DNA from: Salvia splendens
Lineage: Eukaryota; Streptophyta; Magnoliopsida; Lamiales; Lamiaceae
NCBI RefSeq assembly: GCF_004379255.2
Contig: NC_056051.1
Location: forward strand, 6,784,062 to 6,848,061
Direction of reading: 5' to 3'
Length of the DNA stretch: 64,000 nt
Part shown: positions 16,335 to 62,300 of the stretch, piece by piece
How positions within the stretch are numbered: the first letter of the stretch is position 1
How the letters are laid out: each line of letters starts with the position of its first letter
Position numbers and translations under genes: made by a program
The notes under the pieces: model-generated
The model's input: the letters and a program-made list of their open reading frames with translations, nothing else
What the model was told of the DNA's origin: nothing
The model's database searches: none

Positions 16335-16498
16335 CAAGCCGCTAAACTGCCAAAGTGATGCAATATAGGCAGCAAATGCAGAATTTGAAGAAAAGAGGTC
16401 TCAGCATGACTGAGTTTGCCGCTAAACTGCCAAAGTGATGCAATATAGGCAGCAAATGCAGAATTTGAAGAAAGAAGGTCTCAGCATGAATGAGTTTC
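16335..16498 (+). repeat. Tandem duplication of about 80 bp in copia gag
   Basis: GCCGCTAAACTGCCAAAGTG followed by ATGCAATATAGGCAGCAAAT occurs twice in direct succession with four or five differences. It breaks the gag frame and is a local post-insertion event. Confidence 0.85.
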
Positions 16499-17099
16499 TG
16501 GGTAAGATGAGAACCTACTTTGATTTGTTAGGATCTGTTGGATGTAGAATTTCTGAGGGAGAACAGGTTCTACACATTCTGGGAGGTCTAGGCCAGGAAT
16601 ATGATCCTGTTGTGTGTGTTATTACTTCAAGAACAGATCTATGGAATATAGGAGATGTTAGTGCATTTCTGCTCAGTTTTGAGTCTGGAATGGAAACAAC
16701 TAAAGCGCACTCAGTAGCTCAGAAGGATCTCAACCAGCCCTCAACCTTGTTCATCAACAATATGGCCAGAAAAGAGATCAGCCCTTCAACAACAACAGAT
16801 TTGAATCTGAAAATGGAAGAGGCTTTGGAGGAAGGGGGCAAAGAGGTAGAGGTGGAAGAGATTTTGGAAGAGGAAACACCAACAAAATTGTGTGCCAGTT
16901 GTGTGAAAAACCTAGTCACTCTGCAGCCAAATGCTGACATAGGTTTGAACATAACTACACTCCACCTCAAGCCAACTTCAGAGGAACTGCACCACAGCAA
17001 CAACAACAAGGCTATTTTAACTATGTCCAATCTGTTCCAAGATCTCCATCAGGCTCTTGCTCTGTTGCTGCTCCATCTGAGTTTAACTATGGTGATGGC

Positions 17100-20000
17100 T
17101 CATCATCAAGCTGGTATCCAGATTCAGGGGCCACTCACCACGTTTCAAATGATCTCAACAATCTCAACATCAGCTCAGAGTACACAGGAAGTAACAATCT
17201 CTTGCTTGGTAATGGAGATGGTGTTAAAATTGCTAATGTTGGAGAATCTGCTTTTAAATCTCATTCAGCTGGTTTCTCCATACAACTCCATCTTAAAAAT
17301 CTCTTGCATGTTCCTAATATAACTAAAAACTTGCTTAGTGTGTCTAAGTTTGCACAAGACAATTCTGTCTTTTTTGAATTTCACCCAAATTTTTGTCTTG
17401 TTAAGGATATGAGCACCAAGGCAGTTGTGCTCAAAGGAACCCTTTAGAGAGGCCTTTATCATTTTCTAATAGATCATTCCCCAATCAAGTGCAGCACTAG
17501 CTCCAAATCACCTTCCAGTCAAGACTTTCCAGCAGTTCATTCCCTGAGTTTGGCTAACTTCAATTCCAACAGCAGTAGCTCTTCTCATGTTTCTAGTCAA
17601 AATTTGGCTTTATGGCATAATAGACTAGGACATCCTACTCTTGATGTAGTCAAGCTTGCTTTAAATAGTTGTAATATCTCCTACAATGAAATGAAAAATC
17701 CTACTCTTTGTTTTCCTTATTCTGTCTCAAAGTCCCACAGACTGCCATACTCTATTTCTCTTTCGGAATATGATTCCCCTCTTCACCTAATTCATAGTGA
17801 TCTTTGGGGACCATCTCCTGTCAAATCTATGAATGGTTTTTCATATTATGCGTCCTTTATTGATCATTACTCAAGGTTCACTTGGATTTTTCTACTTAAA
17901 AACAAGAGTGATGTTACTGCTGCCTTTAAACAGTTCAAGGTCATGGTAGAACTCTTTTAAGCTTGAAAATAAAAATTCTACAATCTGATTGGGGAGGTGA
18001 GTTTCAGGGTTTAGTTCCTTTCCTTAAGGAGTGTGGGATTGTTCATAGAGTCTCCTGTCCACATACACCTCAACAAATGGTCTAGCTGAGAGAAAACACA
18101 GACACATAGTTGAGACTGGTTTAGCTCTTCTTGCTCAATCTTCTTTGCCTCAACGTTTTTGGGATGATGCATTCATTACTGCAGTCTATTTGATCAATAT
18201 TATGCCATCAAAGGTCATAAAAAACTCCTCTCCATATGAAAAACTCTTTCTCAAAAGGCCAGATTATTCATCCTTAAGATTCTTTGGCTGTCTATGTTAT
18301 CCTTTCATTAGACCCTATAACAAACATAAGTTTCAATTCAGGTCTATGAAAGGGACTTTTCTAGGGTATAGTCCATCTCATAAGGGGTACAAAGCTCTCC
18401 TCCCAGATGGGAGACTAATTGTCACTAGAGACATAGTCTTTGATGAATAGTGTTTCCTTTCCAAATTTCCCCTCCTGCAATACCTAGTCCAGTTGAGTCT
18501 AGTTCTCCCACACCCTCTTTTCCTATCCACTCTATTCCCATCACTACCCAGCCATCTCATTCTGTTCCTTTTTGTTCACCGTCCTCTCAGCATAACTCAG
18601 AACCAGTTCCTGAGTTGCCCCAGCCTCACCCTGATGAATATAGCCAGGCCTCTCCACTCTCCCAGTCTTATATTGAGGATCATTCATCATCCCCTGATCC
18701 TCCTACTCAGCCTGTTCATTCTATGACCACTAGATCTAAGTCTGGCATTTTCAAGCCAAAAATTTTCAACATCACCACTTCTTCTTCTTCTTCTCTGCCT
18801 AAGTCTGTCATTGATGCCTTGCTTATTCCAGTTTGGAGATCTGCTATGCTGAATGAATTTAATGCTCTTCTTAAAAACAAAACATGGATTTTAACATCTC
18901 TCCCTCCAGGCAAGAACCTTATAGGCTGCACCTGGGTATTTAAGATCAAATTGCACTTATCTGGTGCCATTGCCCGACATAAAGCCAGGTTAGTTGCTCA
19001 AGGCTTTTTCTCAGCAGCCTGGATTTGATTTCAATGAGACTTTTAGTCTTGTTGTGAAACCTACTACGATCAGAATTGTCCTCAGTTTGGCAGTCTCACT
19101 TGGCTGGCAGATAACTCATCTTGATGTGAATAATGCCTTCTTGAATGGTGAGCTTAAAGAAGATATCTATATGAAGCAGCCTTTGGGTTTTGAGCAGGGG
19201 GGGCTCATCTTGTCTGTAAACTCAATAAAGCAATCTATGGCTTAAAGCAAGCCTCTAGAGCTTGGTTCTTTACTGTGCACTCTGCTTTGCTTGCTCTAGG
19301 CTTCTCTTAATCTAAGGCAGATGCATCAATGTTCTTCAGACAGTAGGGAAATGAAGTTATATATCTTCTAATCTATGTTTATGATATGTTGATAACTGGA
19401 AATGCTCCTGCATCCATTTAATTGGTCATTTCTCAGCTTAACTCTTCTTTCTCTTTAAAAAATCTTGGGGAGGTGAACTTGTTCTTAGGTGTTGAAGTGG
19501 TTAAAACTCAAGACAATGGACTTCATCTATGTCAGTCCAAATACATCAAAGACCTTTTAAAGAGAGCCAATATGACAGGAGCAAAGGGGTGTCCAACACC
19601 TATGGTTTCTAACTGTGAATTGAGGAAAAGTGCAGGTGAACCTATATCAGATCCCAAACTCTATAGGAGCATAGTGGGAGCACTGCAATATGCAGCCATT
19701 ACTAGACCTGATATCAACTTTGCACTAAACAAAGTGAGCCAATACATGGCAGCTCCATTGGTTACACATTGGAGAGCAGTTAAAAGAATCTTGAGATACT
19801 TGTCAGGGACATTGGATTATGGTATTCAAATCCAGAAATCAAATGGAGATATATCAGCTTTCTCTGACTTAGATTGGGCTGCTGACTCAGAGTGTGCCTA
19901 TCATGGAAAGAACTTGATATCTTGGTGTGTCAAAAAGCAAACCGTGGTTGCAAGATCAAGTACTGAAGCAGAGTATATGAGTCTGGCTCAAGCTGCATCA

Positions 20001-20290
20001 GAAGTGACATGGCTAGTCTCATTACTTAGTGAATTGAAGATCAAGAGAAAGCAAGCTCCAGTGATTTGGGTTGATAATATGAGTGCAATAGCTCTGGCAT
20101 CTAATCTAGTACTACATGCAAGAACCAAACACATCTAGTTGGATATGCACTTTGTTCGTGATAAAGTTTTGACCAATGAGCTAGAATTAAGACATGTGCC
20201 CACAGCTGATCAAATAGCTGACATCTTCACCAAACCTCTGAGTCATCAACTCTTCGTGAAGCTGAGAGAAAGGTTAGGAATAATATCCCT
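17100..20290 (+). pseudogene. copia pol (protease, integrase, reverse transcriptase, RNase H), degenerate
   Basis: The protease motif DSGATHH is at about 17,121. The GAG-pre-integrase HNRLGHP and integrase core HSDLWGP lie at 17,600-17,830. Reverse transcriptase runs from about 18,830 (KNKTWILTSLPPGK, KARLVAQGF, DVNNAFLNGEL). The catalytic YVDD motif reads YVYD near 19,374, so an active-site Asp is lost. RNase H (SSTEAEYMSLAQ) and the C-terminal ADIFTKPL reach about 20,260. At least six stops or frameshifts break the frame. The last frame runs on into the 3' LTR and its 24-bp repeats. Confidence 0.9.
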
Positions 20291-27926: not shown

Positions 27927-30158
27927 ACCCCCCGGGCTTAACGGGCTCCTTGACCTCAAGGTGAAGATTTGGGAACCGTCTGCGAATCATCTCCAAAGGT
28001 TCCCATGACGGAGAATCCGTCCCATCCGACCATCGCACCAAAACGTGCTCACCCGCGTGACCCTCGTGCCACATTATCTGTGATTCCAAAAACTCGACCG
28101 GATACACGACTGGGCGGCCACCTACAAAGTCATTTGGAAGCGGCACATGCTGCATTGATCCCTCTCCCGCCACAAATTCTCGCAGAAGGCTGACGTGGAA
28201 CACGTCGTGTATGCGACTGCCCTCCGGGAGACGCAACCGGTATGCAACCGGCCCTACCTACTCCACGACCTCAAATGGGCCATAGTACCGCTTGGCCAAC
28301 TTGGCAGAAAGCGGCTTGGCCACCGAATGTTGGCGATACGGCTGGAGTTTCAGCCACACGAGATCCCCTACCTCAAATTCGACGTGTCGGCGATGCTTGT
28401 TGGCGGAGTCTCACATCCGCTGCTGGGCACGCGCCAAATTGTCGCGCAACTCTCGGAGAAGGGCGCCTCGTTGCTGGATCAATTCCGCCACCTTCGGAGG
28501 TGTGGCGGCCGACGGTTGGGAGGCCACTAATAATGGTGGTTCCCTGCCGTAAAGTGCCTTGAAGGGGGACATACCCAGCGCGGCGTTGTGAAAGCAATTT
28601 AATGAAAGCTCGGCCCAAGGCAACAAGTTACACCATCCGACGCGAAAGCACGCAGATACTGTTCGAGACCACGGTTACGAACCTCGGTCTGGCCGTCCGA
28701 TTGTGGATGATAGGCCGTAGAGAAATGGAGCTTAGTGCCGCTGAGGCGAAGCATTTCTCCCCAAGTGGCGTTCAAGAAAACCGGATCCCTATCGGAGACC
28801 AACGTCTTTGGGATCCCATGATGACGGACTACCGAGTTGATGAATAAATGCGCCACCCGCAATGCGTCAAATCGAGTTGGTAACGGGGAGAAATGAGCAT
28901 ATTTTGAAAGGCGGTCGACCACCACCATGATGGCCGTGTACCCCCTCGAAGGCGGAAGACCCGTGATGAAGTCCATGGAAACGTCTTCCCAAACTTGCGA
29001 GGGAATCGGCAGGGGTTGGAGTAGTCCTGCCGGCTTTTGGGTGGAGTACTTGGTCGATTGGCAAACGATGCAGGATTCCACAAATTTCTTGACGTCCGCG
29101 CGCATCCTTGGCCAATAAAAGCCCGCTGATAGGAGGCGGAAAGTCCGCTCATTGCCGGGATGACCCGCTATCGGTGTACAGTGATGTTCCTGCAATAACA
29201 GCCGCTTGAGTTTTGAATCGGGACTGAGCAGGATCCGACGCTTGAAATAAACAAGGCCGTCGGCGACCGAGAGATGCGGCGGTGCCTTTCCCGCGGCAAT
29301 CTGTGCGACCAAGTCGCGGATGTCGGGAAGCTGAGTTGCTTCTTGGCGGAGTCGGTCTACTATATCGGGGATCGGGGCTACTATCGCGAAAAAACCCGTC
29401 GTGGCCGACGCATCCAGCTGTTCGACGGTGTTCCGAGCGTCGGGCACGCCGTCTGATCCGCCGTCGGCTGGAATACCGGCTGAGTCGTCCCGCCGAGAGA
29501 GAGCATATGCTGCTCTGTTTGAGCGTCCAGTCTTATACTCAATTGTGAAGCGATAACCCATTAGCTTCCGCACATAAAGATGTTGATCCGGGGTCTGTAC
29601 CACCTGTTGTAAAAGATCCTTCAAACTTTTCTGATCGCTCCGTATAACAAATTCTCTCCCTAAGAGATACTGACGCCACTTCTGAACTGCCTCCACAATA
29701 GCGTATAGCTCCTTGTGATAGGTTGATGCCACGCGTCTACGTGGGCCCAATTTCTTGCTGAAATATGCAATTGGGTGCTTGTCCTGGATCAACACCGCTC
29801 CAATGCCCACGTCGGATGCGTCTGTCTCAATGCAGAATGGTTTATCAAAATCCGGCAAGCTGAGAACCGGCGCTGAAGTCATCGCGGCTTTCAATGCTGC
29901 GAAAGCCGTGTCCGCGTCCCCGGACCAAGAAAACGCTTCCTTTTTAAGGAGATCAGTGAGTGGGGCTGCTATCATGGCATAGTTGGCCACGAACCTCAGA
30001 TAATAACCTGTCAAACCCAAAAATCCCCGTAGCTGCTTGACCGTTTTTGGAACCGGCCACGCCGACATGGCCACTATCTTTGCAGGATCGGCCTTAAGGA
30101 CCCCGTCAGACACCAAGTGACCCAAGTATTCCACCGTCGTCCCGCAAAAAGAGCATTT
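27927..30158 (-). pseudogene. Chromovirus pol remnant: RT C-terminus, RNase H, integrase, chromodomain
   Basis: On the minus strand, RT resumes at FCGTTVEYLGHLVSDG. RNase H follows (FCIETDASDVGIGAVL, PIAYFSKKLG), then integrase with a zinc-binding region (HCTPIAGHPG, SCIVCQSTKY), catalytic context MDFITGLPPS and SDRDPVF, and TAYHPQSDGQTEV. A long open frame ends at 28,599. After a frameshift, GMSPFKALYGR and the [10 protein letters not shown] region continue, with TGA near 28,410 and TAG near 28,250. A chromodomain-like segment (HVLVRWSDG, SWEPLEMIRRRFP) lies at about 27,970-28,070. Chromodomains steer integration to particular chromatin in this lineage. The remnant is inactive. Confidence 0.9.
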
Positions 30159-30479
30159 GGAAAATTAAGAACTCTTCCTGCTTCTCGGCCAAAAACAACT
30201 TGACAGCCTCGTTCAAATCGGGCTGCTGGGAAGACTCGGGGCGATGAGTCTTTGAGCGGCTTGTTCCTTCTCCGTGAGAACTGGAAGTAGATTTCTCCCG
30301 AGGCTGTTTTCCAGACCTGCGGGCTGGACTAGCTTCCTCAGGGTTATCACGAACGGTATTATGGGTGTTATGTGATCTGGTATGCATTTTTTTTTTTTTT
30401 TTTTTTTTTGGGGTGGAAAAAGGGTCAAAAATTCGCTTTATCACAAATTTGGTTCTCTGTTTCCCACAGACGGCGCCAG
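30159..30479 (-). pseudogene. Duplicate PBS and gag N-terminal stub of the Tat element
   Basis: The stretch equals 40,458-40,778 by eye: PBS (TGGCGCCGTCTG on the minus strand), a poly-A run, and the gag start reading MHTRSHNTHNTV through AEKQEEFLIF. It then stops at the chromovirus junction. Its presence downstream of the 3' LTR implies a tandem LTR-body-LTR-body structure of which only the first 0.3 kb of the second body remains. Confidence 0.88.
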
Positions 30480-35278: not shown

Positions 35279-38200
35279 TTACAAATGGAACTTCTTAAGG
35301 TTGGAAACGTGCCATGTTCGGGGTACTTGTTCTCCTGACACGTGAGTCAATTTGTAAGACCCTTTGCCGAGGACTTCTGATACCCGATATGGACCTTCCC
35401 ATGTGGGTTCGAGTTTGCCCAGCTTTTCTGCTCGGCTTACTTCGTTGTTTCTCAAGACGAGATCTCCCACTTGAAATTGCAGCTTTTTCACCCTTTGGTT
35501 ATAATACCGGGCTACTTGCTCCTTGTACTTGGCTGCTTTTATGCAGGCCAATTCTCTTCTTTCTTCGGCCAGATCTAGTTCGGCTCTCAGTCCGTCATCA
35601 TTCATTTCTGAGGAGAAATTTAGAGTTCGAGGACTGGGTACGCCGATCTCAACCGGAATCACGGCTTCAGTGCCGTACACCAGACTGTACGGAGTTTCAC
35701 CGTTGGAGGTTTTGGGTGTAGTTCGGTAGGACCATAGGACTTGAGGGAGATTTTCTACCCATTGTCCTTTGGCTTGTTCTAACCGAGCTTTTAACCCTTT
35801 CACCAAGATACGGTTTGTTACCTCCGTTTGTCCGTTTGCTTGTGGGTGGGAGACCGAAGTGAACCGCTGTTGAATATTCAGCTCTTGGCACCAATTCTTG
35901 AATGTCTTGTCGGTGAACTGAGTCCCATTATCCGAAATGAGGATGTGGGGTATGCCAAATCGGCACACTATGTTCTTCCAGACGAAATCCAATGCCTTCG
36001 AGCTCGTTATCGTAGCTAATGGTTCAGCCTCCACCCACTTCGTGAAGTAATCCACGGCAACGATAAGGAATTTCATTTGCCGAGGAGCTTGTGGTAGTGG
36101 TCCTACTATGTCTATGCCCCATTGCATAAAAGGCCAAGGGCTTTGCATAGCACATAGATCGGTCTGCGGCATCCTTGGGATATTTGCATGGATTTGGCAC
36201 TTCGTACATGTCTTGACGAGCTGCACTGCTTCTTGTACCAAAGTTGGCCAATAATATCCCCATCTCAGAACTTTTTTAGCTAGAGCTCTAGCTCCGATGT
36301 GGCTACCGCAAGATCCTTCATGAACTTCTCTAAGGATGTAGTCCGTCTCTTCTGGTCCTACACATCGCAATAACGGTTGAAGGTAGGACTTTCTGTATAG
36401 GACTCCTTCATGAAGTTCATACCGAAGTGCTCGGCATGTGATTTTCCGAGCTTCTCTCTTATCCTCGGGCAGTTGTCCTTGATCTAGATACTGTAAGATC
36501 GGCGTCATCCAGTTCGGCGAGCTGGTTACTGAATGTACCTCAGCTTCATCAATGCTTCGGTGTAGTAATTCCTCCACCTTTGAGCTCGGATATGAGGCCA
36601 ACTTACTTAAAGTATCTGCTCGGCTGTTTTCCGCTCTGGGAATGCGGATTATCCGAAAATAAGAGAAACTTCGGCTAATGCTTTGCGCTTTGTCCAAGTA
36701 TTTTTTCATCCTCTCATCTCGGGCTTCACTTGTACCCAGCATGTGATTCACTATGACTTGTGAATCACAATGGATTTTGAGAGATTTGACAAATAGACTT
36801 TGCGCTAAGTGAAGTCCGGCAAGGAGGGCTTCGTATTCGGCTTCGTTATTAGTAGTTGGGAATAAGAACCGAAGTGAATAAGTTACCTCGTGTCCGTCGG
36901 GAGCGATAAGTAGAATACCAGCTCCACTTCCCGTTTTATTCGAAGCTCCATCTACGAATCCGCTCCAGCAATCCGGCGGCTCTACTTCGGATTCCAGGGG
37001 CTGTGCTAGTTCGGTATTGGCAGAATTTTTCTGTTCGGCAATGACAGGGATTACTTGATCGAACTTTGCCTCTGTAAGAAAATCTGCCAAGGCTTGTCCC
37101 TTGACGGCTTTCCGAGGTAGGTATTCGATTGAGTGTTCTCCCAACTCTATGGCCCATTTGGCGATTCTGCCTGATGCTTCTGGCTTGGTCAAAACTTGCC
37201 GAAGTGGCAGATCGGTTAAGACGCATACCTTGTGAGCATAGAAGTATGGCCGCAGTCTCCTTGCTGCATTTACTAACGCCAGAGCAATTTTTTCCAGAGG
37301 TTGATACCTTGTTTCTGGACCTCTTAATGCTCGGCTTGTAAAGTAGATGGGAAGCTGCTTTAGGCCTTCTTCTCGTACAAGCACCGCGCTAATGGTTTGA
37401 TCTGATGCCGCTAAGTATAAGAATATCACTTCGGCATCGGTTGGAGCAGAGAGAATTGGAAGCTTGGCTAAATAACTTTTGAGCTCGTCAAAAGCCTTTT
37501 TCTGCTCGGCTCCCCACTCAAACTTTGGTGCCTTTTTCAACACTTTGAAGAACGGCAGTTGCTTTTCGGCTGCTTGGGAAAGGAATCTATTCAGTGCGGT
37601 TAGACATCCAGTTAGCCTTTGCACATCATGTATGGACTTCGGCATCGCCATGTTCTGAACAACTTGAATTTTTGAGGGATTTGCCTTGAGTCCGTCCTTT
37701 GAAACCCAACAACCCAGAAACTTTCCCGAATCTACCAAAAAGGTACATTTTTGGGGATTGAGTTTGAGGTTGGCTTTTTTGAGCACGTCGAGGGTGGATT
37801 TGAGGTTGTCTTCGTACTCCGAAGTGCTTCTGCTTTTGACGACTATGTCGTCAACATACACTTCAACCTCTTTTCCTATCAAATGCCGAAAAAGCTTATC
37901 TACCATCCTTTGATATGTGGCTCCGGCATTCTTTAAACCGAATGGCATCTTTTTATAAGCAAAGATGCCGAAGTCAGTAATGAAAGCCGTTTTTGAAGCA
38001 TCATTCTCATCCATTAAAACTTGGTGGTAGCCTTTGTATAAATCAAGAAAACAGAAAATTTCGAAGCCGATCAAAGCTTCTACTTTTTTATCTATGTTCG
38101 GAAGGGGATAGCAATCTTTAGGACAGTGCTTGTTTAGATCGGTAAAATCTATGCACATCCGCCATCCTCCTTCTTTTTTCTTGATCATCACAGGATTGGC

Positions 38201-38542
38201 CACCCAAGAAGGATATTTCACCTCGAATAATACATCCGCTTTCAATAATTGGCGGACTTCGTCATGGATGACTTGATTTCTTTCTGCCGCAAAGAGTCTT
38301 TGCTTCTGTTTTATAGGCCGGACTGAAGGATCAATATTTAACCGATGAGTGATTACCTCAGGGGGCACTCCGGTCATGTCCAACGGAGACCATGCAAAGA
38401 CATCTTTGTACTCCTTGAGGAGCTGGATGGTCTTTTCCCGGAGTAGAGGCGTTCCCGCGAAACCGATCTTGACCGTTCTGGATGGATCATCTTCGTATAA
38501 CTGAACGGTCATTGAGTTCGACTCTGGTGTGACTTCGGTCAT
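35279..38542 (-). CDS. Tat-element pol: reverse transcriptase, two RNase H domains, integrase (1,087 aa)
   Basis: One uninterrupted frame. Reverse transcriptase occupies about residues 80-330, with PLPNIDKKVEALIG, FLDLYKGYHQV, MPFGLKNAGATYQRM and the catalytic YVDD in VEVYVDDIVVKS. The element-type RNase H follows (AASDQTISAVLVREEG, YFTSRAL). A second, archaeal-like RNase H is at about residues 530-660 (GFVDGASNKTGSGAGI, NNEAEYEALLAGL, HCDSQVIVNHMLG), the mark of the Tat lineage. Integrase has an H2C2 finger, catalytic Asp in WGIDIVGP, Asp in ISDNGTQF and Glu in ANGQTEVTNR. It is in the same frame as gag-pro, from which it is separated by one UAG at 38,576-38,578. The ATG at 38,542 may be incidental if pol is made by read-through. 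Confidence 0.93.
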   Translation of the reverse strand: MTEVTPESNSMTVQLYEDDPSRTVKIGFAGTPLLREKTIQLLKEYKDVFAWSPLDMTGVPPEVITHRLNIDPSVRPIKQKQRLFAAERNQVIHDEVRQLLKADVLFEVKYPSWVANPVMIKKKEGGWRMCIDFTDLNKHCPKDCYPLPNIDKKVEALIGFEIFCFLDLYKGYHQVLMDENDASKTAFITDFGIFAYKKMPFGLKNAGATYQRMVDKLFRHLIGKEVEVYVDDIVVKSRSTSEYEDNLKSTLDVLKKANLKLNPQKCTFLVDSGKFLGCWVSKDGLKANPSKIQVVQNMAMPKSIHDVQRLTGCLTALNRFLSQAAEKQLPFFKVLKKAPKFEWGAEQKKAFDELKSYLAKLPILSAPTDAEVIFLYLAASDQTISAVLVREEGLKQLPIYFTSRALRGPETRYQPLEKIALALVNAARRLRPYFYAHKVCVLTDLPLRQVLTKPEASGRIAKWAIELGEHSIEYLPRKAVKGQALADFLTEAKFDQVIPVIAEQKNSANTELAQPLESEVEPPDCWSGFVDGASNKTGSGAGILLIAPDGHEVTYSLRFLFPTTNNEAEYEALLAGLHLAQSLFVKSLKIHCDSQVIVNHMLGTSEARDERMKKYLDKAQSISRSFSYFRIIRIPRAENSRADTLSKLASYPSSKVEELLHRSIDEAEVHSVTSSPNWMTPILQYLDQGQLPEDKREARKITCRALRYELHEGVLYRKSYLQPLLRCVGPEETDYILREVHEGSCGSHIGARALAKKVLRWGYYWPTLVQEAVQLVKTCTKCQIHANIPRMPQTDLCAMQSPWPFMQWGIDIVGPLPQAPRQMKFLIVAVDYFTKWVEAEPLATITSSKALDFVWKNIVCRFGIPHILISDNGTQFTDKTFKNWCQELNIQQRFTSVSHPQANGQTEVTNRILVKGLKARLEQAKGQWVENLPQVLWSYRTTPKTSNGETPYSLVYGTEAVIPVEIGVPSPRTLNFSSEMNDDGLRAELDLAEERRELACIKAAKYKEQVARYYNQRVKKLQFQVGDLVLRNNEVSRAEKLGKLEPTWEGPYRVSEVLGKGSYKLTHVSGEQVPRTWHVSNLKKFHL

Positions 38543-38569
38543 TTCGCTTGCCTCTGACTCCGGCTGCTG

Positions 38570-38578
38570 TGATTGCTA
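38570..38578 (-). promoter_or_regulatory. UAG-CAA-UCA stop context between gag-pro and pol
   Basis: On the minus strand the gag-pro frame reads GCA TAG CAA TCA CAG and pol continues in the same frame. UAG followed by CARYYA is the known plant leaky-stop context of the tobacco mosaic virus type. A mutated Gln codon (CAG to TAG) in a Gln-rich linker is the alternative. Confidence 0.55.
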
Positions 38579-40686
38579 TGCTTGATGATGCCGATCTGAT
38601 TGCTCGGCACTTTTAAGCGCAATCTGCAGACACTCTTTTGCTTTCTTTTGATCACCTCGGATGACCGCTATCCCACCTTTAGTGGGAATCTTGATGGTGA
38701 GGTGATAAGTAGAGCAAACGGCCCGAACTGCGTTGAGCCAGTCTCTTCCCAAGATGATGTTGTACGGGGACCGAGCTTTTACCACAAAGAACTCGATCAT
38801 CGTACTGGAGCTTGTAGGCGCTTTTCCCACCGTGATCGGAAGGCTGATAATACCTTCAGGGCGGGTGTCCTCCTGGGCGAAACTTTTCAGAGGAAGTGGA
38901 GCCGGACTGAGCCGAGCTGGATCCACTTCTAGTTTATCGAAACATTCTTTAAAAAGAATGCTGACTGACGCTCCGGTATCCACAAACACTCTGTGGATCA
39001 GTTTGTTTGCCACTCCGGCTTGGATGACAATAGCGTCTTGATGAGGAGAGATGGCCGGGACGGGATCTGCATCTGAAAATGTAATCACTTCGTCCTGCTT
39101 CAGCCTTTTATGCGTTGGCTCCTCTCGATTGAAGCCTCTGCGCTCTGACTTCAGGGACGATTTAGTCTTCCCGGCAGGGAGAGCATCAATAGTCAGGATT
39201 ACTCCATCATATTGCAGCTCGTCATCGTCTTCGGGGTCCTGTTGCTTTTTCAGATCCTGAGGAGCGCAGTTTGCACCTCTCTGCTTTTTGTTCTTTTTCG
39301 GCTGCTTGCTTTGGTATTTTTTTAACGTCCCTGCTTTCATAAGAGCGTCAATACCTGCAGCCAAATGTCGGCACTCCTCGGTATCGTGACCGTGGTCTTG
39401 ATGGAAGGAGCAATATTGATCCTGAGGTCGACGCGCGGCCGATTTCGTCATCCGCTTTGGTTTTTCGAACATATCGGAATGCAGTTCGAAAATTTCCGCT
39501 CTCGACTTGTTCAATGGTACGAACTGGGCGGGCGGCTTCTCGGGATTGAGACGTGGCCCCAATCGGTCTTGCACCGGAGTCCTTTGAATCCTTTCAAAAG
39601 GAGTTCGGCGAGGATGTCCCTGATCGCCAAAAGGAGTTCGGCGAGGATGTCCCTGATCGCTATGATCGGGCTTCCTCCTGTCTCCTCGGGATGAGCTGTC
39701 TAAAGACCGTTTGCGACGGTCTGCCTCATCGGCACGGGAGAACTGGTCCGCAATGTCCCACATCTCTTGAGCTGTTTGCGGACTGCATTCCACGAGCTTT
39801 CTGTAGAGAGCTCCGGGCAGGATTCCATTTTGGAATGCCGAAATGACAAGTAGATCATTGAGATCATCTACTTGTAGGCATTCCTTGTGGAATCTCGTCA
39901 TAAAGTCGCTGATCTTTTCGTCGCGACTTTGACGTATAGAAAGCAGCTGAGCCGAAGTGATTCGGGCTTCCGCTTTCTGAAAGAACCTCCTGTGGAAAGC
40001 ATCCATTAGATCTCGGTAAGATCTAATGCTGCCTTGGGGGAGGCTATCGAACCACCTTCTTGCGTTCCCGATAAGCAGCTCGGGAAACAGCTTGCACATA
40101 TGGACCTCATTGAGACCTTGGTTCGCCATGTTATACTGATAGCGTCCCAGGAAGTCATGAGGATTCACTAACCCGTCATAAGTCATCGACGGAGTTCGGT
40201 AGTTCTGTGGCAAGGGAGTTCGGGTGATATCGTCCGAGAACGGAGTCTTCAATGCTCCGTACATGGCGAACCCGACATCTCTTCGGTATGGAGGAGATGG
40301 AGTTCTCCTGTGATTCCGGTACCGAGGAGGAACAGGAACATGTCGGGTTGAGGATTCTTCTTCCTGGAAGACACGGCACTACTGCGGTAGTGACTTTCAT
40401 GTCTGGATGAGGAGGGAGAATCCACCGTTTTCGTCTCCGGCTTTTGGCCCTTTTGCAGGAAAATTAAGAACTCTTCCTGCTTCTCGGCCAAAAACAACTT
40501 GACAGCCTCGTTCAAATCGGGCTGCTGGGAAGACTCGGGGCGATGAGTCTTTGAGCGGCTTGTTCCTTCTCCGTGAGAACTGGAAGTAGATTTCTCCCGA
40601 GGCTGTTTTCCAGACCTGCGGGCTGGACTAGCTTCCTCAGGGTTATCACGAACGGTATTATGGGTGTTATGTGATCTGGTATGCAT
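38576..40686 (-). pseudogene. Tat-element gag-protease with a single frameshift
   Basis: The ATG is at 40,686 after a poly-A run. The N-terminal part (MHTRSHNTHN, basic and Ser-rich) runs until a one-base frame change in a purine run at about 40,353-40,370. From there the frame is open to 38,576. It contains the Gag core (NPHDFLGRYQYNMANQG, PELLIGNARRWFDSLPQGSI, FHRRFFQKAEARITSAQLL), a CCHC-like region (CSFHQDHGHDTEECRHL) and the aspartic protease active site VDTGASVSIL. The shift would block capsid production from this copy unless it is a sequencing error in the homopurine run. Confidence 0.85.
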
Positions 40687-53300: not shown

Positions 53301-56300
53301 TTACTATTGGTCTTCAAGGCTATGCGCAGCTGTATGTTGCATTGCCTTCTTACATAATTCTTTACTAATATAGGCTGTAGGCAATTGAATAATTTGGGAA
53401 TGCCAAAATTGATGGACTTGAAAATTGAAACATGGATGGTTTCCATACTCTTACGTCTATCTGTTTTCCATCATGGGTAGGTTTTTCTTTATATGTCGAG
53501 GACTGTTGTTCTCTTAACTAACTGAAGTATGTTTGCTTGCATGATGCAGACATGAAACTCGTTATACTCGCCTTGCTAATTGGGACGGTATAGTAAAGGT
53601 TAGTCTTCCACATTCTTAATATTATCCTTTGGGTCTCTGATCTGTGTGCCTGTGGTTCTTGCCTATTTGTGAACTGTGTTGACTGTGAGCTCTTATTTTC
53701 GAAATGTATGCATATCACTGAACCCGAATGACCTTTTTTCAAGACCTTTTATGATAAATCCGCACACTGTTCATCTGCATGAATATTTTTAGTGATTGCA
53801 ATTACCTGTACAAAATATATGCCTTCATACACATCATATTTTTTTAATAATCATATGAAAAATAAGTACCTATATCGTTCTCTAGCTAGGATCTTAGGAG
53901 AAAATCGCGTATATAGGCTACTTGGCCTTTAAAATTACGTAAATGTACCCATTTTGTTATCAATTCCATTTATGAGAAAAACGCCGATGAAGTTGGCGTG
54001 TTTATAAGTAAAAACGCCAATAGTATTGGCGTGTCTATACGCAAACACGCCAACGAAGACGGCGTTTTATACTTGTGCCGTATTTTGGGCGTATTCTTTC
54101 CAATGATCATTACGTTAAAACACGCCATTGGTGTTGGCGTGTATTATATAAAACACGCCAATGACATCGGCGTGTTTAAAAGCAAAGACGCCAATAACAT
54201 CGGCGTGTTTAACCGAAAAACGCCAATTTGAGTGGCGTGTTTTAACGGACTGATATAACAGCAGCCTCCACCCCCAAATCGCGAAAACATCACAGCAGCC
54301 TCACACTTTGCGATTTTTCTCCAAGCAGCGCCAATCTCCGCGAATTCGCCCTCCTCTCCGTGATTTCGCCCTCCATTCATCAATCGGTGCTATTCTTCCC
54401 CAGATTCATATATTTTCTTCGGTTAGTATGCTTATCTTTTACATTATTAGAGTAATTGTTGGATAGTTAGCTAGGGTTTGTAATGGGTTGTGAATTGAGT
54501 TGAAATATTATGCATTTTGGATTGTTTGAATGACATTAGTGTTGATTATTATGTTGGATTATTTGGATTTAAGTGAATTTATATATAAAATTGATTATAA
54601 ACCTAAACCCTAGGGTTGTTATAGCAAAAAAATTGGGCAAATTGATTTGGTTTATGTGAGTTTTGGTTGATGTATATTGTTAGGCTGGGCAATTTGAAAT
54701 TGGACAAATTGAAATTGTTAGGTTGGACAAATTTGTAATTGAAATTGTCAATTTTGTGTAGATGAATTGTGTTATGATTTTGGATGTGAAATGTTGTGTA
54801 GGTGAATTTGTGTATTGTATGTAATTATTAAAATGATTTATGTTTGGTAAATGTTAAATTTGGATTATGAATGCTGTGTAGGTAAATTATGGCATCATCT
54901 TCGACTTCTGCTCGTCGGCTTGCGTGTGGTCCTGCGGATCCTTCTGTACTGTATCTTCAGAGACAACACGTCTCTAATAACATGTGGGCAGGAGTTCCAT
55001 CCGAATACGTACGCTGCCGACGATATGAAGGAATAATTTGGAATGTTCCCATACATCACCGTGTTTTGGCACTAGTGGACCAGATGGGGTTCGGCGGTTT
55101 ATTGAGGTGTGGTCAGCCAAAGGAAATTGACAACCATCTGATCACCGCTTTGATTGAACGTTGGAGGCCAGAGACTCACACGTTTCACTTCCCAGTCGGT
55201 GAAGCGACTGTAACATTGGAAGACGTGGAGGTTTTATGGGGCCTGAGAGTTGATGGAGAGGCTGTGACGGGTTACATCCCCCCGAAACAACCGGGATATT
55301 GGCAGGACAGGTGTTTGGATTTTCTAGGATTCATACCGGACGCATCCGAGTTGAAGGAAATGGCTTTTAAGCAGACAAGCTTATCGCGTCAATTGAGGAT
55401 TGAGCTGAATGATGAGCACGAACACAACATATATGCTCAGCGGGCTCGTATCTACTGTCTGCTATTACTTGGTGGTCTGATGATCCCGAATGCCACCGGA
55501 AATAAAATTCCGTTCTTCTACCTGCAATTTTTCATGGATATAGAACGGTGTTCTACCTATAGCTGGGGTGGTGCGACGCTTGCTTGCTTGTACCACAATT
55601 TGTGTGAAGCTGCCGTTGCTAAGAGGACAGATGTCGGGGGAGCCTTAACTCTATTACAGCTGTGGGCTTGGGAGAGAATCCCAAATATTAGACCGAGGAT
55701 GCTAGATCCCGTGCATACAGACTATCTACCATGTGCAAGCGCGTAAGTTATTCACTAATTCATTTTTTAAGCTTTATGTTCATCAATCTTCGTGTTATTC
55801 GCTCATAATTTACATTTTGTAGATGGAATGGTCCGGCGTCATATGTAAAAGCACCCGGACATTGTATTGAAAATTTCCGATATCAGTTCTCCATGATGCA
55901 TGCCAACCAGGTACTTCATATACTTATAAATTGTTTTTTGTTTGTTGTTTTTTATTGAAATTAATTTGAATAAATTTGTGTTACATGTAGTTTATTTGGA
56001 TGTCTTATCTCCAACGGCAGTTGCCGGAAAGTTGTGATGCCGGTCGTCCTGTATGGATGTCGATAACAACGCTTATTTGCTGGAATCTGGCTGAGCCACA
56101 CCTGCCACACCGAGTGTTGCGCCAATTTGGGATTGTCCAACCGTATATCCCGCAACTCCCCCGGTTCCACGGTACTGATTTTGCGAAACAGGATCGCCGT
56201 GGAAAAGCTGGTCGAAATTGAGTTGATTGGCACGCCAATTATATACAGGAGTGGGACAACAGGCACTTTTTGGTGTGGACTGATCTGGAGTACAGTGATG

Positions 56301-59300
56301 AGCCTGTTGCAACCGAAGAATATATGGATTGGTTTCGGCAGATAACTGTGGTGTATTTAACCAAACCCGGCGTGCGTGCTGAACAGGGCTTCCACGAAAC
56401 GGCATCTTCTCATAGATTCGCGGTAAATTATTCATACTTAACCAAACCCTAGTTAATTATTTAAATTCATATTATGATATGTATTTAACTTTGATAATTG
56501 TAGGTGGAGACACTTCACAACGTGCGCCACTTTCTAAGTGGCCAAGATACGACATAACATCCGGCTTTGGGAACCATTTCGAGGATGATTGAAGAAGGAC
56601 TGCGGATATCCGGGGAGGCTGAGCGGATGGACTACCGTCCTTCGCAGCGCTCTGCAATGGACGTGGACGTACCCGTAAGGCAAAAGGCAAAACGACGAAC
56701 CAAAAAGAAAACCGCCTGCGGAGAGTCGTCATCTCAGCCCCTACACCGCTCCGATGACGATTTTGTGGAACCACCTCTACCTAGATCTGCAGTTCGAGAC
56801 CGTCATTCTGTCAGCCACACCGGTGGTACCGTAAAAGATATTGGCCTCAGTGATGTCCCCACTTCTCCACCGTGGTCGTCTGTGCAAGATGACTTTTTTG
56901 GGGTGGATCTAGAGAACACTGTTGTTCAAGATACTCCTCCCTCAAGGATCCCTAGATCTACATCCAGAATTGGGAAGGGGATACGGGGTTTGTTTATGCG
57001 GAAACGGCGAGATGATTAAACTAATTTGATACTTTCTATTGATATTGGTGGTTTTTCATTGATTTGAACTCGTTATATTAGTAATTTGATAAATCCTCTT
57101 TTTACACGTATTCATATTGATATTTTGAATTCTTTATATTACTTATTGGTCGACGATAGGAACAAACACGCCATTCCCAGTTGGCCTTTTTATGTCACTA
57201 AAATTTTGTATAAAACGCCACTCCAATTGGCGTTTTTAACTTGGGAAAAATTTGGCCAAATTTCCCTACGCGGACATTCTGCATAAACACGCCACTTTCG
57301 TTGGCGTGTTTTAAAAGACGCCAACAGTATTGGCGTTTTTCGTGGAAAACGCCAACGGAGATGGCGTTTTTATCTTTGGGAAAAATTTTGCCAAATTTTC
57401 CTACGTTGTAGCGGACATTCTGCATAAACACGCCACTGTCGTTGGCGTGTTTTAAAAGACGCCAATAGTATTGGCGTTGTTTGTGGAAAACGCCAACGGA
57501 GATGGCGTTTTTACCTTGGGAAAAAATTTGCCAAATTTTCCTACGTTGTAGCGGACATTCTGCATAAACACGCCACTGTCGTTGGCGTTTTTAGTGGAAA
57601 ACGCTTACCTTGGGAAAAATTTGGCTTGGGAAAATTTTGGCGAGTAAAACGTTACAATGTTCAATTCAATAAATAGCTACGATTATAAACAGAACAATGT
57701 TCAATTCAACTAAATAGTTGTTACACATTCAATTGTCTCGCCTTCTCCGGGTAAAGAAGCTACGGATACCCTTCCCGATTCTGGCGGTGGAGAGTCTAGA
57801 CGGAGGAGTATCTTGCACAACGACATTCTCTAAATCAACCTCAAAAAAATCGTCTCGCACAGAAGACCTAGGTGGAGAATGTGGGATATCACTGAGCCCA
57901 ATGTCGTCGCCTGTACCACCAGTGTGGCTGACAGAATGCCGACCTCGAACTGCAGATCTTGGTGGAGGTGGAGGCATAAAATCGTGATCTGCATCATCAG
58001 TGTGGCTGATAGAATGACGACCTCGAACTGCAGATCTTGATGGAGGTGGAGGCATAAAATCGTCAGCGGCACAATCTACCAACTGAGTATCCATCCTTGA
58101 AGAAGCATTCGGGCAGTTGCGTCTGTCGTGCCCTGGTTGACGGCAATGTTTACATCGGCGTCGGGCGCGTGGCTGGTCAGCTTCACGGACATCCATCTGA
58201 TTAGGAATCCTAGTAGTACGATATCGACCTCGACTTTTAGGCATTAACTGGGCTCGTGAACATTGCAAAGTCCATTCAGGCACATCCCAATAATCTTGGT
58301 GTCTGATTGGATTGAACACCGTAGAATATTGGTGTACCCAAACACTTGTGCGGTATACGTTATCAACAAGCGACAGCATGGGCTCGTTTCTAAACCGCGC
58401 AACTGCCGCTGCATGTGAACATGGAAGTCTCCACATCTGCCACTTTTGACATTTGCAGTTTGACTCCAAGTACTTTACCTTCCACTTATTACCGCCCTTT
58501 CCACCAATTCGACGCTTTGTTCGAACCACGTAAAGCCCTGCAATTGTGTTTGGGACTCTCACATTATGTAATTGACCTTTTACATCATTTTTGCACACCT
58601 TTTCATGGGCCCACGGGGTAAGTGGTGTGGCACACTGTGTTGATGCAATTGACCGCTCATTAAACCATTCTATTGTCCTCCAAAATATCAGATCAATGCA
58701 AGCTTTAATTGGGAGTTGTCTTGCGCCTCTCAACACATTGTTGTAAGATTCAACCATATTAGTGGTCATCTCACCCCATCTTTTGTGTTTGTCATACGCC
58801 AAACTCCATTTTTCTAACTCCACGGCATCAAGGTACTGCACAGCCTCGTTGTTGATGGTTCGAAGTAAACGACGTCTGATCTTAAACTTGCGTTTCTTTG
58901 TAGCAATACCAATTTTCCAAACAAGTTTTTTTACCACGATGCCTTTGTGATTCTGCAAAACATTTTTTCTAACATGTACCAAGCAAAATCTGTGATGCCC
59001 CACATTGGGTTCTTCTTTCCATATGGGAGAATTCATTGCATCTATGATTCCCACATGCCTATCAGATATTACACATATTTCATGCTTGGCTACGTGAATT
59101 CTAATACGTTCCATAAACCAATTCCAACTTTGTATGGTTCCTCATCAACAATGGCATATGCAATAGGCAAACATTTCTTATTAGCATCAAATCCAACGGC
59201 AATAAGAATTTTACCTCGATATCGTCCACGTAGATGAGTTCCATCAACGGTTAAAACTGGTTTGCATAGTTGAAAAGCCTCCACAGCTGGACCAAAAGCC

Positions 59301-62300
59301 CAAAATACGTACTTGAAAACCTTGTTCATACCGTTGCTTAATCTTTCATCATTTAACCATTCGACAATTGTGCCAGGATTTTGTCTTTGCAACTCATTCA
59401 AATAACCTGGTAAAACTTTGAAATTCCACGCCCACGAACCATACACAAGCTCAATAGCTGTCCTCCGAGCATACCATACTTTCTTGTAACTAACTTTCAC
59501 ATGAAATCTATTTTCAATATCCGCCACAATTGCTTTTACCTTGTAGCAAGGATCGTTTTCTATCTGATGTCGAACACTCAACGCTATCATACCCGACGAA
59601 AGATTAGCGTGCCCATTATAATTACGATCCCCCATGCAAGTATGAGCAGTGCTAAACACTCTAATTTGCCAGTGTTCATCATGCTTCCTCAATGTTGCTC
59701 GGCACTCCTACAAACATGGCGGTAAGGACTTATCTTTCGGATTTCCTTGTGGCCACTTACAAACTGCATGCCATCTCTTTCCTTTACTTTCAACAACTGT
59801 ATATTGTCGGATTTTTTCCAAATGCCAAAAAGTCACAGCTGACTTCAATTCCAATTTGGTTTTAAATTTAGTATGCAAACCGACATTGCTCGGATCTTTT
59901 TCACTCCAATAATGCACATTGAGATCATCAGACTCAAAGTTTTTTGGATCAAAACTATCATATGGACCTGGTAAGGTGCGAAAATAGTTCATACCAGGCT
60001 GTGGGAACTGTGGAACTACTCTTTCTCGTACTGCTCTTCCTCCAATTGATGTTTCTCCAACCACTGTTTCTCCAACCGGAATGGATGTTCTTGGAGCAAC
60101 AAATTGGTCCTCATCCGACGAAGCACCATCTGAATCTGTACTATCCGGATCGACATCTTCAGAATCATAAGGTGATTGTGGATCAAGAAAGTCGGCTTTA
60201 TCAGGACCAATTATGTCCTGAACCACATCACAGTTGTCAATGTCCCCTAAATGCACGCCTCCAATATCAAAATCTTGTGTTGTATCGAAGCATGGTTCTT
60301 GGCCTCTCGTTGACGTACCAACATCAAAATCTTGTGTTGCAGCGACATATGGTTCTCGGCCTCTCGTAGACGTACCAACATCATTACTCATGAGATGATG
60401 ACTATGTTGTTGAGTAATTGACGAATACTCAACATACAATTCAATTTGACTTCCTGTAGTCATACTCTCACTAAACATTAGTGGCATGTATACTTCTTCT
60501 AGTAAAATACCTATATACGTGATTGAAGATCCATAGAATATATGACGTTTCCATACTATTTGAAGTTTGTTTTCAAATATGTTTATCCTCATTCTTTCAC
60601 AAATTGTTTCCACAAGCTTTTCGTAGGAAATACTTTCATCCAACATAATCAATCCTTTTGCAAAACGAGGATCATATGAAATAACTGTTCCGGGAATTAT
60701 ATTTCCACCCCAATATAAATGGACACACCACGTCATACTATCTGCATTAATGTCAAACACAAATATTGGTCAAAAATATTTCTTTACAGTACACTACAAT
60801 ATATATTATCATAACAACCTATCAAATATGGGTAAAAAATTAGATATACTACAACATATAATACCATAACAATTGGTCAAAATATTTCTATTAATTACAA
60901 TACAATTTATAATACTATAACAATCCATCAAATAATTATATAAATTACACTACAATATATACTATCATAATAATCCATCAAATATTGGTAGACTAATGTT
61001 TGGAAGAATGAGTTAAAAATTAGCTATACTAACCGATTGCGAGTACTAATATTTGGAAGTAATGAGCCAAAATAGAAATCTACACGCTTCAATCCACCAC
61101 CGGGTTGACCCGACCAAGGCAAGAGTTTTCGCGTTTTTCAGCTTTGGGAAGGTTTTTCGCGTTTTGGGGAGGGAGGGAATGTGACTAGGGTCTGCGATTT
61201 TGGGGGAGATCTGAGAAATATGGTTCAACCAAAAAACGCCGATCAGGTTGGCGTTTTTTATGTTAAACACGCCAATGACCTTGGCGTTTTATAACTTAAA
61301 GACGCCATCAAGATTGGCGTGTTCAAATTTAAGTATTTTGGTTAAAAATACGAGCAAGATACGGTGCCATTGTAAAACGCCAACTATGTTGGCGTGTTTG
61401 CGTATAGACACGCCAATACTATTGGCGTTTTTACTTATAAACACGCCAACTTCATCGGCGTTTTTCCCATAAATGGAATTGATAACAAAATGGGTACATT
61501 TACGTAATTTTAAAAGCCAAGTAGCCTATATACGCGATTTTCTCAGGATCTTAGTGAAGGTTAATTGAGGCTTGATGCTAGAATCTTACGTAATAATTTT
61601 GAACTACTTTTGTTCGAACATTTTTACATTGAAGTAATTTAGTGTTATAGTGGTGTTTTCATTCGCTGATGATACCTTTATCATATGTAGTCACACACTG
61701 TTCGGGATTTTGATACCCATGCCACCTGCCTAGTTGGTAAATACGAGGTACCTCTTGTTCCCCGTTTCTGAATATTTCCTTCAAAAGCATAATTTCTACC
61801 TAACTAATATATTGTAGCTTTTTTATGCTTGCTCAAGACTGTGGATACATTCTATAGACGTTGTAGCAGTTCTGCTTTTATTGGACAAGTTTCAGTTCCG
61901 TTGCTCTGCATAAGTGCATTGGATGATCCAGTCTGCACTAGAGAAGCCATTCCTTGGGATGAATGCCGGTAGAGTTGTCCTCCATAAGTGACGACTTCCT
62001 TTCTACCCTTCCAATCCACCTTATATAGTGCGAAGATGTTTTCTTATGGCAGAGCAAATAAAAACGTAGTCATAGCTACATCTCTGCACGGAGGACATCT
62101 TGCGTTCTTTGAGGGCATAACTGGATCTCGCCTATGGTACTTCATTCGAACAATTTATTTTCTAGTCGAGTTATTTATAGCTTCTGAGTTACTGCATAAA
62201 CTAATTGAGAGAATTAATAGCTACAAGAACGTCGTCTTGTTTATTAGTGCAGTGTTTTGCCAAAGATCATACAATGTACGACTGTCTCGAGACATTTTTG

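Follow-up and report, generated by a model that had tools for sequence, protein, structure and literature searches.

A Mutator-like element of Salvia splendens encodes, opposite its transposase, a plant mobile domain protein with a predicted VANC21-like fold

The two genes of the maize transposon MuDR, mudrA and mudrB, start at opposite ends of the element and finish in its middle. The window analyzed here, a stretch of 64,000 bp from Salvia splendens (contig NC_056051.1, positions 6,784,062 to 6,848,061), contains at positions 53898-61544 what is almost certainly a Mutator-like element (MULE) of the MUDR type with the same convergent layout; the likeness to MuDR is one of layout, and the second gene here encodes a plant mobile domain (PMD) protein. 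Elements of this kind have been catalogued by Dupeyron et al. (2019; PMC6446971), whose description of the MUDR group gives SWIM (in some cases CCHC) transposases, target-site duplications of 9-10 bp, terminal repeats of 30-320 bp and, for most members, an antisense PMD. An antisense PMD is also listed there for several other groups, and half of the members of the VANDAL group are given as carrying 'PMD and/or DUF'. Because antisense PMD genes of MUDR-type elements are already in print, the convergent layout of the MURA transposase gene and a PMD gene is known, and because most members of the group are listed with one, PMD may be its usual second gene. The original prediction for this locus held that the PMD protein had replaced mudrB in this lineage. 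That part of it is unsupported in light of the published list, although its view of the PMD gene as a standing part of the element holds.

Two bodies of work bear on what such a protein might do. VANC proteins are reported to read short motifs repeated in the noncoding parts of their own elements, and related VANC proteins to read different motifs (PMC5735166); anti-silencing by VANC and MURA is treated in PMC10398659 and PMC13317346. The function of the PMD has been called unknown (PMC5418596, PMC8616336), though the domain is found in transposons and in host silencing proteins. Ikeda et al. (2017; PMC5418596) report capture of PMD-C by MULEs and speculate about anti-silencing, while MAIN/MAIL1 and PP7L are the subject of PMC7156037 and PMC8616336, the second of which already suggests, beside VANC21, that PMD proteins might be produced by transposons to counter silencing. 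In the open-access literature we found no account of a relationship between PMD and VANC, and the accessible portions of papers that use both terms do not call them relatives.

In structure prediction, the PMD of the Salvia element takes a fold that matches the solved region of VANC21, from the Arabidopsis element VANDAL21. As in VANDAL21, short sites are repeated in noncoding parts of the element and differ by family. The two systems differ in that the Salvia element has long terminal repeats and a 19-bp palindromic site, and in that no sequence match to VANC21 was found. The accessory or anti-silencing role that had been proposed for the PMD protein is strengthened by the predicted fold together with the VANC-like site arrays. 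We assign a probability of roughly 0.5 to a complete mechanism in which the protein reads sites as an accessory factor in the manner of VANC and is linked to the transposase by a common tail. MURA and the PMD protein, with its predicted VANC-like fold, are encoded from the two ends of a MUDR-type element. The PMD protein would bind 19-bp palindromes of the form ACGC-N11-GCGT, whose inner letters would set family specificity. By analogy with VANC anti-silencing, its occupancy of the terminal and central arrays would keep its own family's DNA open, and a tail common to PMD and MURA would let the two proteins bind one another or dock to a shared partner. Fold match and family-specific arrays give the PMD a concrete, testable role, namely sequence-specific DNA recognition, and the idea of what such transposon partner proteins do becomes testable as well.

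The palindrome ACGC-N11-GCGT occurs 21 times in the window element, always outside both genes, and not once in the other 56 kb of the window. Seven units form a left array (53981-54238), eight a central array between the gene ends (57215-57588) and six a right array (61236-61461), none of the three having a strand. A first-order Markov model predicts about 0.05 chance occurrences in place of these 21; its expectation for the ACGC form ranges over 0.03-0.07 per element, and the ACGCC form would be expected 0.005 times in the window copy. Each half-site contains a CpG, the pitch within runs is about 29-33 bp, and the central array consists in part of tandem copies 141 bp apart. We searched 806 Mb of genome and worked with eight full copies: the window copy, four picked by the left terminal repeat (A-D) and three picked by PMD match (E, F and G). 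Among ACGCC-to-GGCGT pairs less than 25 bp apart in these copies, the spacer is exactly 9 in 160 of 161, and the centres are variable.

The same frame recurs, with other inner letters, in more distant elements. A P0001-type element, 4.5 kb of which cover the left end, the PMD gene and the centre, has 13 units, 12 of them beginning ACGCCA. One copy of a second family (L068+L069; PMD at 41% by P0013), flanked by the 10-bp duplication ATTCATTCCT, holds 15 units of the type ACGCATGA-N3-TCATGCGT, six at each end and three in the centre, and the first-family motif occurs zero times in it. One copy of a third family (L070:1297-7948, at C22:20230596-20237247; PMD at 42% by P0009) has an open MURA frame of 923 codons, a convergent PMD gene, 391-nt terminal repeats that are 97% alike and a 10-bp duplication; its 10 units, with inner letters mostly ACGCGA/TCGCGT, are divided four and six between the two ends. 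All three families keep the 19-bp ACGC...GCGT frame.

A second link between the two proteins is a common C-terminal tail, encoded at 56753-57016 (+) in the PMD gene and at 57732-57995 (-) in the MURA gene, the related coding ends being visible as an inverted repeat (56753-56946/57796-57989). In copy F, the last 100 or so residues of the two proteins share 65% identity across 102 positions (E 1.8e-33); the next-best match between them has an E-value of 0.089. We measured nonsynonymous (dN) and synonymous (dS) divergence, here and below, by the pairwise Nei-Gojobori method. Within one copy, the PMD and MURA tails stand at dS 0.77-0.94 and dN 0.09-0.17, a ratio of 0.10-0.19 (p <=3e-8; four of the eight copies), and within the P0001-type element at dS 0.55 and dN 0.15, a ratio of 0.27. 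Because dS is high and dN low, we read the comparison as two unrelated proteins of one element keeping one tail by selection on protein sequence; on the same values from the four copies, recent gene conversion or constraint at the DNA level is unsupported in the window subfamily and its sisters. The tail of the P0001-type PMD is nearer to MURA tails at silent sites, with a dS of 0.33 to the MURA tail of copy F, 0.55 to its own MURA tail and 1.02 to the PMD tail of copy F, which makes at least one copying or conversion event from MURA to PMD probable. In the P0001 model the PMD tail has no predicted structure; it has a basic stretch at its end. We infer a common docking or localisation role, in which case such a tail may indicate that a transposase and its accessory protein cooperate physically. 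That PMD elements in general carry such a tail is unsupported: inspection by eye of the best 150 of 318 matches to a second PMD tail, GPSKYTPSS[YF]K, showed no opposed pair less than 6 kb apart, and MURA has a different end in the one copy read from each of the two other families.

Several observations weigh against the VANC-like mechanism. The Foldseek E-values are all above 0.001, and the TM-scores are modest (0.58/0.47 for exon 1; 0.28/0.41, with a root-mean-square deviation of 7.2, for P0001). Sequence searches of the PDB do not recover VANC21, and the match to DUF1985 scores 22.1 bits against a Pfam cut-off of 35.1, for which reason we do not file the PMD protein as a VANC. The VANC21 motif, YAGTATTAY (PMC5735166), is unlike the 19-bp palindrome. 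The centre of the third-family copy, about 0.18 kb long, is without units, so a central array zone is not general. The tail is absent from the one copy read in each of the two other families, so PMD elements can spread without it. In the comparison of copies E/F with G (dS 0.05-0.07), dN/dS is 0.55-0.59 for PMD, a weaker constraint than elsewhere, and 0.42-0.44 for MURA. MURA, moreover, diverges between families alongside PMD, so that MURA could itself be the site reader. The arrays would then be MURA binding sites, and PMD would act elsewhere, for example in integration or chromatin targeting, without reading DNA sequence. Mutator terminal repeats are said to contain transposase binding sites (PMC3310237), the arrays lie in both terminal repeats of the window family and of the single copies from the two other families, and the eight best MURA relatives, at 47-59% identity, diverge about as much as PMD. 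We nevertheless consider this explanation unlikely, since arrays are also found centrally in two of the three families, where a transposase should not need sites, and since it is PMD whose predicted fold is that of an anti-silencing factor that reads sites (a prediction that covers PMD only).

Host PMD proteins act in transposon silencing with PP7L as a partner (PMC5418596, PMC7156037), and sequence comparison and a tree indicate that the PMDs of transposons and of the host are related. The element's protein might therefore be a decoy of silencing factors of the MAIN/MAIL1 type that disables the complex they form with PP7L, relieving silencing with no binding to the element itself. Such a decoy leaves the site arrays, and their change along with PMD, unexplained, and the multi-copy PMDs of Salvia form one group (18 rows, support of 100 in the Shimodaira-Hasegawa-like approximate likelihood ratio test, SH-aLRT) apart from 13 rows of long host-type proteins (SH-aLRT 99) in what is a quick, midpoint-rooted tree with SH-aLRT support only and many long branches flagged; we regard the decoy as improbable. 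We give very little credence to the proposal that tandem duplication produced the arrays incidentally, or that they serve as DNA-structure elements, and that PMD is a passenger with no function in transposition. The partly tandem, 141-bp organization of the central array agrees with it, and palindromes can fold as hairpins, but the PMD domain is under purifying selection, the 19-bp geometry is fixed across three families while the centres vary, and some inner letters break the hairpin pairing. Extending the VANC-like, site-reading interpretation of PMD further is tentative and, to our mind, rather doubtful: the PMD as a whole would be a VANC-fold, site-reading DNA-binding domain, MULEs with an antisense PMD across flowering plants would carry VANC-type anti-silencing with co-evolving palindromes, MAIN and MAIL1 would be domesticated counterparts acting in the opposite direction, and in one lineage the transposase tail would have been copied onto the factor, wiring both together.

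The element itself is bounded by the target-site duplication AGGATCTTAG (53888-53897 and 61545-61554, no strand), which is 10 bp long, as it had been predicted to be, perfect at both flanks and within the 8-11 bp typical of Mutator-like elements. The predicted 157-bp terminal repeats are present, with 155 of the outermost 157 bp identical, and the inverted repeat in fact reaches 313 nt at 84% identity, from 53898 to 54210 (+) on the PMD side and from 61232 to 61544 (-) on the MURA side; these are long terminal repeats. The PMD gene on the plus strand and the MURA gene on the minus strand start from opposite ends and stop in the middle of the element, an arrangement that Pfam domains and borders in aligned copies confirm. 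Transposase with a SWIM finger, duplication length, repeat length and antisense PMD all agree with the MUDR group, whose description in PMC6446971 makes no mention of the fold link, the palindrome arrays or the common tail.

The plus-strand gene matches PF10536 at 183.3 bits (Pfam cut-off 34.9). Its four exons lie at 54889-55742, which encodes the PMD with the predicted VANC21-like fold, 55823-55910, 55991-56422 and 56504-57019, with GT..AG borders in all eight aligned copies; in the window copy, exons 3 and 4 each contain an in-frame stop. PMD-C and the host factors MAIN and MAIL (PMC5418596) have this same Pfam domain. The fusions of PMD and transposase described in that paper are from grasses and Amborella, whereas in Salvia PMD is a separate convergent gene that groups apart from the long host-type proteins. 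The MURA gene (about 57729-60736, minus strand) is broken in the window copy by a stop near 59708 and a frameshift near 59100. Its SWIM finger scores 21.5 bits against a cut-off of 19.6, and its MULE domain is split over two broken pieces (E 2.3e-5 and 3e-4), each under the cut-off; PF10551 is annotated in 12 of the 14 MURA relatives found, according to precomputed domain annotation. By these sequence matches, the gene has the MULE transposase domain with SWIM finger expected of a Mutator-type element. With two stops in the PMD frame and a stop and a frameshift in MURA, the window copy looks dead, an old, broken member of a two-gene element. Three diverged 61-nt repeats, with a mutual likeness of 75-84%, lie 5' of the MURA gene (60774-60990).

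Both genes are present and convergent in all eight full copies, each of which has its own 9-10 bp duplication; because E, F and G were selected through PMD, its presence there is not independent evidence. Both frames are intact in two of the eight (L065 and L066), with a PMD of 626 residues and a MURA of 1,022 residues, counted from its first likely start, and this intact pair differs at 3 of 1,881 bases in PMD and 4 of 3,069 in MURA. A search with the left terminal repeat gave 36 further own-type matches, not all of them separate elements, among the best 40 of 1,152 candidates. With the PMD-side end of the element as query, 24 of 30 loci picked by that repeat, the window locus included, are continuous well into PMD exon 1, and the remaining six break off or jump between the two. 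Among the best 136 of 1,499 matches to PMD exon 1, 40 share one score of 606 bits, and among the best 150 of 811 matches to the MURA tail, 45 fall within an open frame of 1,078 codons. A listed MURA tail lies no more than 6 kb away from 77 of the 136 PMD matches, and all 77 pairs are convergent, with no other orientation. For the P0001-type subfamily, 12 of the 15 closest PMD exon matches (those listed at >=96% identity) have a MURA-tail partner, chosen by eye from the MURA-tail list. Further searches likewise scored the best 63 of 2,310 and the best 77 of 2,542 (P0001-type). Since only the best candidates were scored, unpaired matches are no evidence of missing partners.

The many PMD matches of equal score, the many full MURA frames and the near-identity of L065 and L066 we take as signs of a recent burst, and the 40 equal-score matches and 45 open frames mean that working copies may exist for testing. 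Selection acts on the PMD gene, which is a constant component of the element, kept with MURA by copies that have the same terminal repeats; it is neither absent as a rule nor captured once. Single capture of a host gene is rejected on the presence of both genes in every full copy read and on the separation, in the quick tree, of the Salvia multi-copy PMDs from the long host-type proteins. Another copy, L067 (C19:14025600-14034600), is mostly 96.7% identical to L065 in its MURA half and 88.6% or less in its PMD half, a mosaic that suggests module exchange between elements of two subfamilies.

Both genes have been under purifying selection, with dN/dS near 0.4 for each between subfamilies. Comparing the five older copies, which include decayed genes, with E, F and G (dS about 0.15-0.20) gave 0.36-0.44 for PMD and 0.37-0.44 for MURA. 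By segment, in copy F against two of the five older copies, the ratio is 0.30-0.34 for the PMD domain, 0.23-0.25 for the MURA core and 0.26 for the MURA tail; it is 0.40-0.48 for the PMD tail (p 0.01-0.05), 0.53-0.59 for MURA residues 121-250, and about 1 for the PMD linker and for MURA residues 1-120. Several pairs among the older copies have a ratio of about 1 or above, as expected from decay after insertion.

The window also contains other mobile elements. Retrotransposon coding sequence with gag, reverse transcriptase, RNase H and integrase, Gypsy-like by domain order, lies at 35282-40378 and 28602-30164, both on the minus strand, and fragments with Copia-type gag and reverse transcriptase domains lie at 16426-20135 on the plus strand.

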